Below are positions 53,158 to 58,410 of a DNA stretch of 64,000 nucleotides, one piece after another; positions within the stretch are counted from its first letter, which is position 1; the number at the start of each line of letters is the position of its first letter. The stretch comes from Rhodothermales bacterium. Its GTDB lineage: Bacteria > Bacteroidota > Rhodothermia > Rhodothermales > Bin80. A model generated the notes under the pieces. The model worked only from the letters and a program-made list of their open reading frames with translations. It had not been told where the DNA came from and made no database searches. The stretch lies in the NCBI GenBank assembly GCA_022822185.1, contig JAJECE010000050.1:62001-126000 (forward strand), in the 5' to 3' direction. The position numbers and the translations under genes were made by a program.

Positions 53158-53646
53158 TTGGCAAAACTCTCTCAAATCCAGCAAGAGGAAGTCCGGGACC
53201 ACTTCCGGTCATTCCTGAAGCAGCGCGGTCTTCGGGAGACCAGGGAGCGCCTTACTGTGCTTGATGCCATATACGAGGTCACGGGGCATATTGATGCGGA
53301 TGCACTGCACCTTCGCCTGCAACAGCAGAAGCATTCAATCAGCCGTGCAACTGTCTACAATACACTCAGCCTTCTGTTGGAGTGTGATCTGGTGGTGCGC
53401 CACCAGTTTGGTAATTCACAGGCCAAATATGAGTCCTCTTATCTTTTTCGGCAGCATGATCATCTTATTTGTCTGGACTGTCAGGAGATCATGGAATTTT
53501 GTGACCCCCGTATTCAGAATATCCAGGAGATGGTTGCCGATGTCTATGCATTTGAGATCAAGCGGCACGCGCTCAATCTCTATGGTCACTGTCAGCGGCC
53601 CGATTGTGCGAACCGCCGCACATCCCAGCCTGATACAGCGACTTAA
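53158..53646 (+). CDS. fur: Fur-family transcriptional regulator
   Basis: 162 aa (TTG start); ISRATVYNTLSLLLECDLV, HDHLICLDCQEIMEFCDP. Confidence 0.92.
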   Translation: MAKLSQIQQEEVRDHFRSFLKQRGLRETRERLTVLDAIYEVTGHIDADALHLRLQQQKHSISRATVYNTLSLLLECDLVVRHQFGNSQAKYESSYLFRQHDHLICLDCQEIMEFCDPRIQNIQEMVADVYAFEIKRHALNLYGHCQRPDCANRRTSQPDTAT

Positions 53647-53859: not shown

Positions 53860-54510
53860 TCATGAGTTTGTGTTTATGATAGAACTCCATATATCTTGCG
53901 GCAGCGGGAGTCCGCGGTTGAGCCAGTTTTGAATCTGTTTCAGGCCTGCAACTTGATAAATGGGGATCTCTCTTTTTGCTGACTTATTTCCAACCTCACT
54001 ACTCTGTTTGGAATTACGCGCAAGTACGAGTATCTGGGGGGTAGCATTCACACCTTGGATGTTCATTGAGTAGATACTTGCTCCTGTTCCATGCCATTTT
54101 CGTCCTGTCATTACTTCGTCGAAATAGCCGAATTTCTTCAAATGAGTAATGCCTTCCGCGGTTATCCAGTCAACCGACACACCAATTACACTGAAGGCCC
54201 AGCCTTGATCATAAGCTTTGCGTTGCAGTTTCAGTTTAGCCTCTTCAATCAAATCCGGCAGGGAACGGTCATTGCTGTATCCGCAGGTTGACGATCCAAT
54301 AAACACCATCACAAGTTCCTTATCAGGAATTGTTCCATAGGACGGGACATATCTGGGGTATACGCCCTCGCTGTGCCAACGAAGTTCTATGGTAGGAATA
54401 AAATGGAATCTTCCACTGAAGCCTAAAACAAATGAGGCAGAGATCAAGATGATTGCAGACACCCTCCACCAGAGGCTACCTACTCCGATAATGTTAGACT
54501 TTATTCTCAT
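53860..54510 (-). CDS. Membrane-anchored thioredoxin-like protein
   Basis: 216 aa; N-terminal TM; VMVFIGSSTCGYSNDRSLPDLIEEAKLKLQRKAYDQGWAFSVIGVSVDW. Confidence 0.55.
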   Translation of the reverse strand: MRIKSNIIGVGSLWWRVSAIILISASFVLGFSGRFHFIPTIELRWHSEGVYPRYVPSYGTIPDKELVMVFIGSSTCGYSNDRSLPDLIEEAKLKLQRKAYDQGWAFSVIGVSVDWITAEGITHLKKFGYFDEVMTGRKWHGTGASIYSMNIQGVNATPQILVLARNSKQSSEVGNKSAKREIPIYQVAGLKQIQNWLNRGLPLPQDIWSSIINTNS

Positions 54511-54533
54511 TACAGTTTATCTAGCCTCAAGGC

Positions 54534-55763
54534 CTATTGGGATTTGTGGATCCGAATCTGAGGAAACCCTAAACTTTCTGTTGTAGTGAAGCGATAGTTC
54601 CCGTCTATCCCCCTTAATATCTCTCCAATTCTTGGGCCTGCCGCTCCCAGATAGATACCGAGTCCAGTTTGTGCATGGACTCTGAACGCGTGGCTGTCCG
54701 AAATTTCTTTCGGTCCGAATGAAAACCGTGAGGGTTTTTCGAGGAAGGCATAAACCACATAGAAATACTCCCCATCAGAGAATAATGCCAAAAACATGGA
54801 TCCATCAACTTCGTGATTCACTGCAATGTATGTTTTCCCATCCCTCCGGTACTGTTTATATCCAACGGAGCGATAATCTGGAAAAGTAACCTGCCAAAGT
54901 ATTTCACCCTGATCTGAATAGCCAGTCATTGCAGGAATGTGATTTGCGACTAATGCAACGGTTTGATGCTCAGAGTTACAGGCAATGAAGGTGTCGTGTG
55001 CAAAAGACTGCACAGGAAATGGATCTTCGTGGCTATACGCTTCTCCAAAAGACGTAACCCATGTACCATCTAGCATGTACTTGTGAACTATCTTCCTTTC
55101 AGCGGGGGTCTTCATGCTATAATCGATGAGGTAGTAGTGTCCATTCATTGCACACATTCTACCATTCATGCTTGAATATTCCGGCCACTGGGTCGCCGCA
55201 AGTACGAATGATGAATCCTTACGTTCGAAAACATGATTTATGAGTTGATCAGCAATCATGACTTGATTACGATCAGGGAAAATGGTCATGCCAAGAGGGC
55301 TATCAAGTTCTCCTGGCCCAGTTCCTGAAGAACCGACATTTGCTATCCAGTCCCCCTTGTAATCATAAGCCCGAACTTCCTTATGGATGATATCGAAATA
55401 ATAAATCGTCCCGTTACCATCGATCTTTAAATCCCAGACAAACCCGAGCATTTGAGAATAATCTCCCTCATTGACTCCAATCTCTACCACATCCGATGAA
55501 TCCCATTTCCAGAAATCGGCACCGTCCACTTCGTGTCGCAATTCAAAGCGGGAATCCGAAGAAACAGGAATATTCTCTTTGGTAGGATGGATCACGACCT
55601 GAGACGATGCTGATGTATGAAGCGAAAAAAGCAGAACGGCAAAAAATATGCAACGGCCCTTGCAGGGAAAGGAGAAAATGGTGTTATGCAGAACTTCTGG
55701 AAAAAGCTTCATCAGATCAATCATGTTTGAATAAATGCCCCCAATCTGGTTAGTCAACCACAA
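54534..55763 (-). CDS. Secreted 6-bladed beta-propeller protein
   Basis: 409 aa; signal-like FFAVLLFSLHTSASS; GFVWDLKIDGNGTIYYFDIIHKEVRAYDYKGDWIANVGSSGTGPGELDSPLGMTI. Confidence 0.72.
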   Translation of the reverse strand: MWLTNQIGGIYSNMIDLMKLFPEVLHNTIFSFPCKGRCIFFAVLLFSLHTSASSQVVIHPTKENIPVSSDSRFELRHEVDGADFWKWDSSDVVEIGVNEGDYSQMLGFVWDLKIDGNGTIYYFDIIHKEVRAYDYKGDWIANVGSSGTGPGELDSPLGMTIFPDRNQVMIADQLINHVFERKDSSFVLAATQWPEYSSMNGRMCAMNGHYYLIDYSMKTPAERKIVHKYMLDGTWVTSFGEAYSHEDPFPVQSFAHDTFIACNSEHQTVALVANHIPAMTGYSDQGEILWQVTFPDYRSVGYKQYRRDGKTYIAVNHEVDGSMFLALFSDGEYFYVVYAFLEKPSRFSFGPKEISDSHAFRVHAQTGLGIYLGAAGPRIGEILRGIDGNYRFTTTESLGFPQIRIHKSQ

Positions 55764-55895
55764 TTCCCAAAATCAAGGTCTCAGGTTATGCAGGTCAAAT
55801 CGCTTGATTCTCCTGCACGAAAGTGTTTTTGCAAAGTATCTACAGGGAGTACAGAGATGTACTTCCTGCGATACGGAAGGTCATCAAGGGCTCTC

Positions 55896-56111
55896 TCAAT
55901 TCATCTCACAACTATAGGTTCTGCACCCCCCGCCTGTTTTGTCACAGCCGGTATTGGCATTCGGATTATCTGAGCACAAGCCCAACCCCCCGACTTTATT
56001 GCAGACATCGTTCTCGCAGAATTCAAACTCAACGGTGGCCGTTGCTTGATCAAGCCACATGCCACCGGTATAGGCTAGGAACGATAAAACGAGCACTACA
56101 ATTGCACGCAC
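55896..56111 (-). CDS. Small secreted Cys-rich peptide
   Basis: 71 aa (GTG start); signal-like VRAIVVLVLSFLAYTGG, then EFCENDVCNKVGGLGLCSDNPNANTGCDKTGGGCRTYSCEMN (6 Cys). Confidence 0.6.
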   Translation of the reverse strand: MRAIVVLVLSFLAYTGGMWLDQATATVEFEFCENDVCNKVGGLGLCSDNPNANTGCDKTGGGCRTYSCEMN

Positions 56112-56189
56112 GGACCAAAATTAATTCTGTTTGTCATGATTTGCTGATTTTAGCGTTGAAGAAATAGAGTCAAATTCAGAGACGGTGTC

Positions 56190-56366
56190 TTAGCGGCGTA
56201 CCACACCGCCGCAACCGCAATTTCCTTCAAGGCTCTTGCAACTGCTACAGACACAGAATTCTAAATGACCAACACGAACATTGAAGCCCTGCGAAGAGCA
56301 TCTGGCTGTTTCACAGCCGCCGGATCGCAACCCAGAAATACAATGTTCTGTCTTAAGATACAACAT
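56190..56366 (-). CDS. Second small Cys-rich peptide, below the ORF-track size cutoff
   Basis: 58 aa: MLYLKTEHCISGLRSGGCETARCSSQGFNVRVGHLEFCVCSSCKSLEGNCGCGGVVRR (8 Cys). Confidence 0.45.
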   Translation of the reverse strand: MLYLKTEHCISGLRSGGCETARCSSQGFNVRVGHLEFCVCSSCKSLEGNCGCGGVVRR

Positions 56367-57144: not shown

Positions 57145-58410
57145 TTATTCCTCAAATTTCCGGAACGCAACCGAAGTATTGTGGCCGCCAAATCCAAATG
57201 CATTCGAAACCGCCACATTGACCGGACGCTTTTGCGGCGTATTGAACGTATAATTCAGATCGCACTCCGGGTCCGGATGCACAAAATTGATGGTCGGGGG
57301 CACGCAGTCATTGCGAATGGCCTGAATCGTTGCAATAGCCTCCACCGCCCCCGCCGCTCCCAGCAAATGACCGGTCATGCTCTTGGTCGAGGAGAGATTC
57401 ATCCGGTAGGCATGACTGCCGAAGACATTCTTGACAGACTTCGTTTCTGCAATGTCTCCCAGTGGTGTGGAGGTGCCGTGCATGTTGAGATAATCCACCT
57501 CCTCCGGTGCCAGATGCGCATCTGCCAGCATATTCCGCATAGCCAGCGTTGCCCCGCTTCCCTCGGGGTCAGGAGCCGTAATATGGTTTGCGTCTGCACT
57601 CATGCCGATACCGATAATTTCGGCATAGATTTGTGCTTCACGTGCCTGTGCATGCTCCAGGGACTCAATCACCAGCACACCTGCCCCCTCTCCCAGCACG
57701 AACCCGTCGCGGGTCTTGTCAAACGGGCGACTAGCGGTTGCCGGATCCTCGTTTCGGGTGGAGAGTGCGCGCAGTGCATTGAAGCCCCCGATCCCCAGTT
57801 CGCTGACCGCGGCCTCGGTCCCGCCGCACAGCGCAGCATCAATCATCCCCCGCTGCATCATCATGTAGACATCACTGATGTTGTTGTTCCCCGTCGCACA
57901 GGCACTCACCACACAGTAGTTCGGCCCGCGAAACTTATAGCGGATGGAGATGTGACCACTCACGATATCCGGGATCAGCTTGGGAATAAAGAACGGCGAA
58001 ATGCGGCGCGGGCCCTTGCCCAGATAGGCGGAGGTCTGTTCCAGGAACACCTGAATCCCGCCGATCCCGCTCCCGATGATGACCGCCACCCGGTCCCGTT
58101 CATCCTGAGACATACGCTCGGGCGCAAGCCCTGAATCTTCAACGGCCTGGACCGCTGCAACCACGGCATACTGCGCGAACGGATCCATTTTGCGGGCTTC
58201 ACGGCGGTCAAAATGATCCATCGGATCAAATCCCTTCAACTCGCAGGCAAACTTGGTTGCGAAGCGCTCCGTATCAAAGTGGGTAATGGGGGCGGCCCCA
58301 CTCCTGCCCTTCATCAGCCCATCCCAGAATTCATCCAGAGAGTGCCCCAGGGGCGTGAGCATCCCCATTCCCGTGACAACAACGCGGCGCGGCTTGTCTT
58401 GAATCGCCAT
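57145..58410 (-). CDS. fabF: 3-oxoacyl-[ACP] synthase II
   Basis: 421 aa; VSACATGNNNISDVYMMM active site, NMHGTSTPLGD, KSMTGHLLGAAGAVEA. Confidence 0.96.
   Translation of the reverse strand: MAIQDKPRRVVVTGMGMLTPLGHSLDEFWDGLMKGRSGAAPITHFDTERFATKFACELKGFDPMDHFDRREARKMDPFAQYAVVAAVQAVEDSGLAPERMSQDERDRVAVIIGSGIGGIQVFLEQTSAYLGKGPRRISPFFIPKLIPDIVSGHISIRYKFRGPNYCVVSACATGNNNISDVYMMMQRGMIDAALCGGTEAAVSELGIGGFNALRALSTRNEDPATASRPFDKTRDGFVLGEGAGVLVIESLEHAQAREAQIYAEIIGIGMSADANHITAPDPEGSGATLAMRNMLADAHLAPEEVDYLNMHGTSTPLGDIAETKSVKNVFGSHAYRMNLSSTKSMTGHLLGAAGAVEAIATIQAIRNDCVPPTINFVHPDPECDLNYTFNTPQKRPVNVAVSNAFGFGGHNTSVAFRKFEE

Follow-up and report, generated by a model that had tools for sequence, protein, structure and literature searches.

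A conserved, unannotated cassette encoding an exported cysteine-rich peptide, a β-propeller and a thioredoxin-like protein, carried in several copies by a Rhodothermales genome

Among described systems, the closest to the locus reported here is the Bacteroidales-type NVEALA/propeller pair, in which a gene for a short exported cysteine-containing peptide lies directly upstream of a gene for a secreted six-bladed β-propeller, with tandem copies. NVEALA peptides have been regarded as resembling natural products, and in the literature searched we found no functional study of NVEALA/propeller pairs. A second point of comparison is the mau cluster, which encodes the TTQ light chain MauA, the propeller MauB and the thioredoxin-like MauD. 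For the individual proteins, the relevant relatives or analogues are the DUF5128 (PF17170) propellers and BF0058 from B. fragilis (PDB 4raa), the membrane-anchored thioredoxin-fold proteins ResA, TlpA and DsbE, and the CXXS isomerases ERp44 and AGR2, which are eukaryotic ER proteins whose single active-site cysteine can be joined to secreted clients in mixed disulfides (PMC12384036). CXXS isomerases isomerise without net oxidation or reduction, and hold their clients longer (PMC12384036). Our search of the literature on NVEALA, propeller plus thioredoxin operons and Rhodothermales Cys-rich peptides returned nothing on the cassette described below.

The first finding of this analysis is that a conserved cassette without annotation, encoding a peptide, a propeller and a thioredoxin-like (Trx-like) protein, is present once in the window—the whole 64,000-nucleotide stretch of Rhodothermales DNA that was analysed—and several times in the genome. 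Four minus-strand ORFs are present between positions 53860 and 56366, as originally noted (Table 1). They had been read as one cluster with two tiny Cys-rich peptides; three of them (pepB, the propeller gene and the Trx-like gene) are a real unit, and the fourth, pepA, does not stand as a gene. It has a DNA match only in G003, a close relative (Rhodothermales MAG, JAJECV01), at 96% identity versus 95% for the adjoining non-coding DNA and 98.7% for the ketoacyl synthase gene beside it. No relatives were seen outside G003, there is no Pfam or NCBIfam match, and the dN/dS of 0.37 comes from seven substitutions, too few to be informative. We therefore dropped pepA, whose conservation is no better than that of neighbouring DNA, and take the EFC..C motif proposed to be common to both peptides as a coincidence. 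The fur-family gene is kept in G003 only as part of a shared syntenic block, and so no functional link to the cassette is claimed.

Table 1. Features of the cassette and its surroundings (window coordinates)
Feature	Position	Strand	Description
fur-family gene	53158-53646	+	One flank of the cluster, convergent to the cassette
Trx-like gene	53860..54510	-	216 aa, membrane-anchored
Propeller gene	54534..55763	-	409-aa open frame, exported
Propeller C262 codon	54978..54980	-	Cys in 48/48 family propellers
Propeller C204 codon	55152..55154	-	Cys in 48/48 family propellers; 409-aa frame numbering
pepB	55896..56111	-	71 aa from GTG, 6 Cys in mature part
pepB ancestral start remnant	56112..56137	-	Compared with G003 and with paralogues starting MTNSIKYW / MTTRLKYW
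pepA	56190..56366	-	58-aa ORF; outside the cassette, without support as a gene
fabF-type ketoacyl synthase gene	57145-58410	-	Other flank of the cluster

The prediction that peptide, propeller and Trx-like protein belong together is borne out by their conservation as a cassette that diversifies as a unit. This unit is found on one strand at more than 30 Rhodothermales loci and in Gemmatimonadota MAGs. At 36 loci collected around peptide matches, the order is in most cases peptide, propeller and Trx-like gene on one strand, with several gene overlaps. Because loci chosen by the peptide would make the argument circular, contigs were also searched with the Trx-like protein only, which gave 21 loci: a propeller adjoins the Trx-like gene in 20 of them (the other, L113, ends at a contig edge), and a peptide is present in most. 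This search yielded the Gemmatimonadota loci (L123, L126, L127, L129 and L130). In Fodinibius salsisoli (L128), the peptide profile has no match and a 6-Cys ORF follows the propeller. When loci picked by either peptide or Trx-like protein are considered, 43 of 62 propellers of at least 300 aa have a peptide upstream and 44 a Trx-like gene downstream, with 33 having both. Distances between the three proteins correlate across 22 complete cassettes (Mantel r of 0.75 for peptide-propeller, 0.89 for propeller-Trx and 0.73 for peptide-Trx), which is partly a consequence of joint inheritance because the sequences are related. No other gene family recurs beside the cassette across unrelated loci. Gene numbers are also matched in the g9 genomes, where four loci (L102, L104, L105 and L107) have two peptides, two propellers and one Trx-like gene and L103 has the order peptide-propeller-peptide-propeller-Trx, which suggests that one peptide pairs with one propeller. 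Two peptides accompany a single propeller at L111 and L121, and a recognisable peptide is absent at the family propellers of L165, L166 and L167. Neither the peptide nor the Trx-like protein has a family match in the libraries covered by the search, yet the unit occurs in at least two phyla, with up to six copies per genome.

The 71-aa product of pepB has the six cysteines and the signal-like N terminus originally attributed to it. A search that included 40 relatives identified paralogues in its own genome (E 3e-16 on C116 and 2e-12 on C102) and homologues in the relatives with E values down to 1e-29, and the peptide profile has matches in 10 of the 17 genomes of the GTDB family as well as in other families of the order. 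The distribution is patchy, with 0 to 6 copies per genome. In the consensus, a signal-like helix (R..VxxxLaxxAYxGGxxl) and an A-x-A-like stretch (e.g., ATA-TVE) precede a mature part with the pattern CENDxC...GxC...GC...CxTYxC, and the six cysteines, the signal peptide and the CENDxC core are retained across families and phyla. Since the helix and the A-x-A-like stretch stand ahead of the cysteine core, cleavage would leave a mature peptide of some 45 residues containing all six cysteines. Two further copies of the cassette, L078 (G000:C102) and L081 (G003:C103), have stop codons or frameshifts in the peptide, propeller or Trx-like gene, which points to birth and death of cassette copies within the genus.

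The prediction of a secreted six-bladed propeller agrees with an AlphaFold2 (AF2) model showing an all-β, NHL/DUF4221-like fold (pLDDT 89); its number of blades was deduced from how the strands are ordered and from the NHL and DUF4221 propellers that it matches in the PDB. The best PDB match is 4raa, and the others include 3s9j, likewise an exported propeller from Bacteroides, and NHL domains. The reading frame contains ATG starts at 55724 and 55712, and the window protein has a non-lipoprotein signal; a lipobox cysteine is found in about 75% of the family. It scores 12.7 bits against PF17170, below the cut-off of 22.9, and PF17170 matches 13 of 19 family propellers (best 4.8e-16). The predicted fold, the secretion signal and a GxGPGE motif are common to the window propeller and DUF5128/BF0058. 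A difference is that its subfamily has two invariant cysteines throughout, C204 and C262. DSSP of the AF2 model places the two cysteines on the first strands of neighbouring blades, C262 in the blade after that of C204, which suggests that close to the channel they may form a disulfide or a site with paired thiols.

The predicted N-terminally anchored thioredoxin-like protein is also supported by modelling, since its AF2 model shows a thioredoxin-type fold (pLDDT 83) with one N-terminal helix at about residues 10-31. Its PDB matches are ResA, TlpA and DsbE, with low TM scores (0.3-0.5; Foldseek E 8e-5), and it shares with these proteins the fold, the membrane anchor and a cis-Pro, the latter in a TPQ motif conserved in the family. 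Unlike them, it lacks a CxxC redox site: the window protein has a single active-site cysteine, Cys76 (codon 54285-54283), within CGYS. Cys76 is present in all 21 homologues; the motif is CxxS or CxxA in 20 of them, the exception being the CNYC of Fodinibius L128. None of the 21 has a Pfam match, and the family profile has no match among PDB sequences. The original prediction that this protein handles the peptide's thiols needs to be changed accordingly in its chemistry: with CxxS in place of CxxC, a role as oxidant or reductant is unlikely, and an isomerase or holdase acting on disulfides of the peptide and/or the propeller is more plausible. The parallel with ERp44 and AGR2 is one of functional analogy between a bacterial protein and proteins of the eukaryotic ER.

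Comparison with NVEALA loci shows both similarities and differences. In G262 and G366, two genomes of the window's GTDB phylum that we infer to be Bacteroidales from their NVEALA matches, almost all PF14055 peptides stand directly before DUF5128/TolB-like propellers. Signal peptidase I and a Trx-like lipoprotein (GCTSC) are also encoded in some of the regions; in two instances the lipoprotein carries a DUF1573-like part, as a fusion or an extension. Both systems have tandem copies and place the gene for a short exported cysteine-containing peptide immediately ahead of one for a secreted six-bladed propeller, and profile comparison shows their propellers to be related (probability 97.6%). However, neither pepB, nor 16 of its relatives, nor the window's genome (0 matches) gives a match to PF14055; the (A)NVEALA leader motif is absent, the peptides having the consensus AYxGGxLLxxATATxE in this region; and the two peptide profiles align with an hhalign probability of 9.6%. 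NVEALA membership of pepB is thus rejected on the basis of both Pfam and profile comparison. The cassette also has CxxS rather than GCTSC in its Trx-like protein; the two Trx-like profiles align with a probability of 2.8%, over a segment that is the active-site strand, and we do not claim common descent. The suggestion of a distant NVEALA equivalent consequently holds as an analogy of gene arrangement and fails as family membership, the cassette appearing to work like an NVEALA locus without being one. As an independent counterpart of NVEALA/propeller pairs, it offers sharper testable residues—six cysteines in the peptide, two in the propeller and one in the Trx-like protein—through which the meaning of the peptide-propeller pairing becomes directly testable. 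A separate observation in the NVEALA/propeller arrays is that a signal peptidase I-like gene lies near the Trx-like lipoprotein at L223 (G262) and L226 (G366), which suggests dedicated processing of NVEALA leaders.

The reading that we favour, with confidence evenly balanced between acceptance and doubt, is that the cassette makes an exported, disulfide-bonded peptide-propeller complex, with the CxxS protein as isomerase or holdase. The peptide gene would yield a secreted mature peptide of ~45 aa, probably with three disulfides formed by its six cysteines. The six-bladed propeller with its two invariant cysteines would be secreted or lipid-anchored, and the Trx-like protein would be single-span, with its Trx fold and CxxS site facing the periplasm. 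The peptide may be a dedicated partner that docks on the propeller outside the inner membrane, while the CxxS protein, which alone could not complete an oxidation/reduction cycle, would set the disulfides of one or both partners. The output is most likely a surface binding or recognition module. Points against this reading are the unequal numbers of peptides and propellers at L111 and L121, the family propellers with no recognisable peptide, and, at the window locus, a pepB that has lost its ancestral start and gives no sign of purifying selection when compared with G003.

A different, though unlikely, explanation is that the peptide is a secreted effector—a signal, a pheromone or an antagonistic factor—and the propeller its cognate receptor or an immunity or surface-binding protein, with copies diversifying by birth and death. 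The peptide is indeed a small exported Cys-rich product with a patchy, multi-copy distribution, and 75% of the propellers have a lipoprotein signal. Rates of evolution in the window point the same way: between the window and G003, dN/dS is 1.17 for pepB (1.26 for the mature part), with all six cysteines kept despite many replacements, versus 0.33 for the propeller and 0.25 for the Trx-like protein. However, purifying selection acts on three other pairs of orthologous peptides (dN/dS of 0.14, 0.16 and 0.18), so that the ratio near 1 originally named as a sign against the short ORFs is seen for the window copy and not for these pairs. Moreover, genes for exporters, proteases or toxin domains are not a recurrent feature of the cassette's surroundings, and a ratio near 1 combined with a damaged start fits decay too.

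That damaged start bears on another alternative, which we regard as improbable: function would reside in the propeller and the Trx-like protein, and the peptide would be a small ORF acting as regulator or leader or, at the window locus, a remnant in decay. The window pepB has no in-frame ATG. Relatives begin with MTNxIKFWSVR; in the window, the ATG at 56137 is followed by a missing base that causes a frameshift relative to the paralogues, and in G003 the ancestral ATG is mutated to ACA, which leaves only the GTG at 56111 in both. The frameshift may be an assembly error in the MAG. With no in-frame ATG and a dN/dS of about 1.2, the window copy may, judging from these sequence features, be either decaying or diversifying, next to a propeller and a Trx-like protein that are both constrained. 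Against a dispensable peptide stand the retention of the six cysteines, the signal peptide and the CENDxC core over families and phyla, the purifying selection on other peptides, and the correlation of peptide with propeller distances.

It is more doubtful still that the cassette encodes a methylamine-dehydrogenase-type enzyme, mau-like without being mau, with the peptide corresponding to MauA, the propeller to MauB and the Trx-like protein to MauD. Both systems bring together a small disulfide-rich subunit, a propeller and a Trx-like protein encoded in close proximity. However, there is no match to any Mau family and no MauE/MauG-like gene recurs beside the cassette, whose propeller most resembles NHL domains with six blades, not seven, whose peptides lack the conserved Trp pair that would serve as cofactor residues, and whose Trx-like protein has CxxS rather than CxxC. 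Finally, the RiPP-like reading included in the original prediction, in which the peptide is a RiPP or natural product precursor, we consider scarcely credible: the short precursor-like ORF with its variable core and the view taken of NVEALA peptides speak for it, but unrelated cassette loci have no further gene in common, be it for a modification enzyme, a protease-transporter or anything else, and a product with this cysteine pattern and a signal peptide is well suited to simple oxidative folding.

The association of propellers with Cys-rich peptides extends beyond the family. When all propeller matches in six genomes were taken as the starting point and scored for an upstream exported Cys-rich peptide, one was found for 16/25 family propellers and 11/49 generic propellers versus 1/65 control genes (p 4e-8 for all versus control, p 3.6e-4 for generic versus control), and the peptide of the lone positive control gene belongs to a neighbouring cassette. 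These counts refute the possibility, raised with the original prediction, that propellers are never accompanied by such peptides. The peptides next to generic propellers show no sequence relationship to the CENDxC peptides and have no meaningful NCBIfam match. A family Trx-like gene lies beside 15/25 family propellers versus 0/75 controls, and CxxC Trx genes follow 2/51 generic propellers versus 0/75 controls, which is not significant (p 0.16). At two loci, L173 (G000:C22) and L202 (G006:C18), one or more unrelated Cys-rich peptides, a generic propeller and a membrane-anchored CPYC Thioredoxin_2-like protein are encoded in cassette order, apparently a non-homologous version of the cassette. 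A propeller is followed by a DsbA-like membrane thioredoxin at L210 (G003:C114) and L182 (G011). At L210 the propeller is again a generic one and has a Cys-rich peptide of 75 aa ahead of it; the orthologous G000 locus L175 is without a recognisable peptide. We tentatively propose, with less conviction than for the complex itself, that a class of exported two-part complexes common to Rhodothermales, Gemmatimonadota and Bacteroidales might have gone unrecognised, each complex being made of a six-bladed propeller and a dedicated disulfide-rich micro-subunit and often equipped with its own membrane Trx maturase; the peptide and Trx families would have been replaced several times independently while the three roles persisted. 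The variants that we cite for such replacement are CENDxC with CxxS in the window cassette, the CPYC protein of L173 and L202, and the DsbA-like protein of L210.

A further observation comes from G018, a one-contig genome, in which several propellers (L184) are directly preceded by exported Cys-rich ORFs that are short and differ in sequence.
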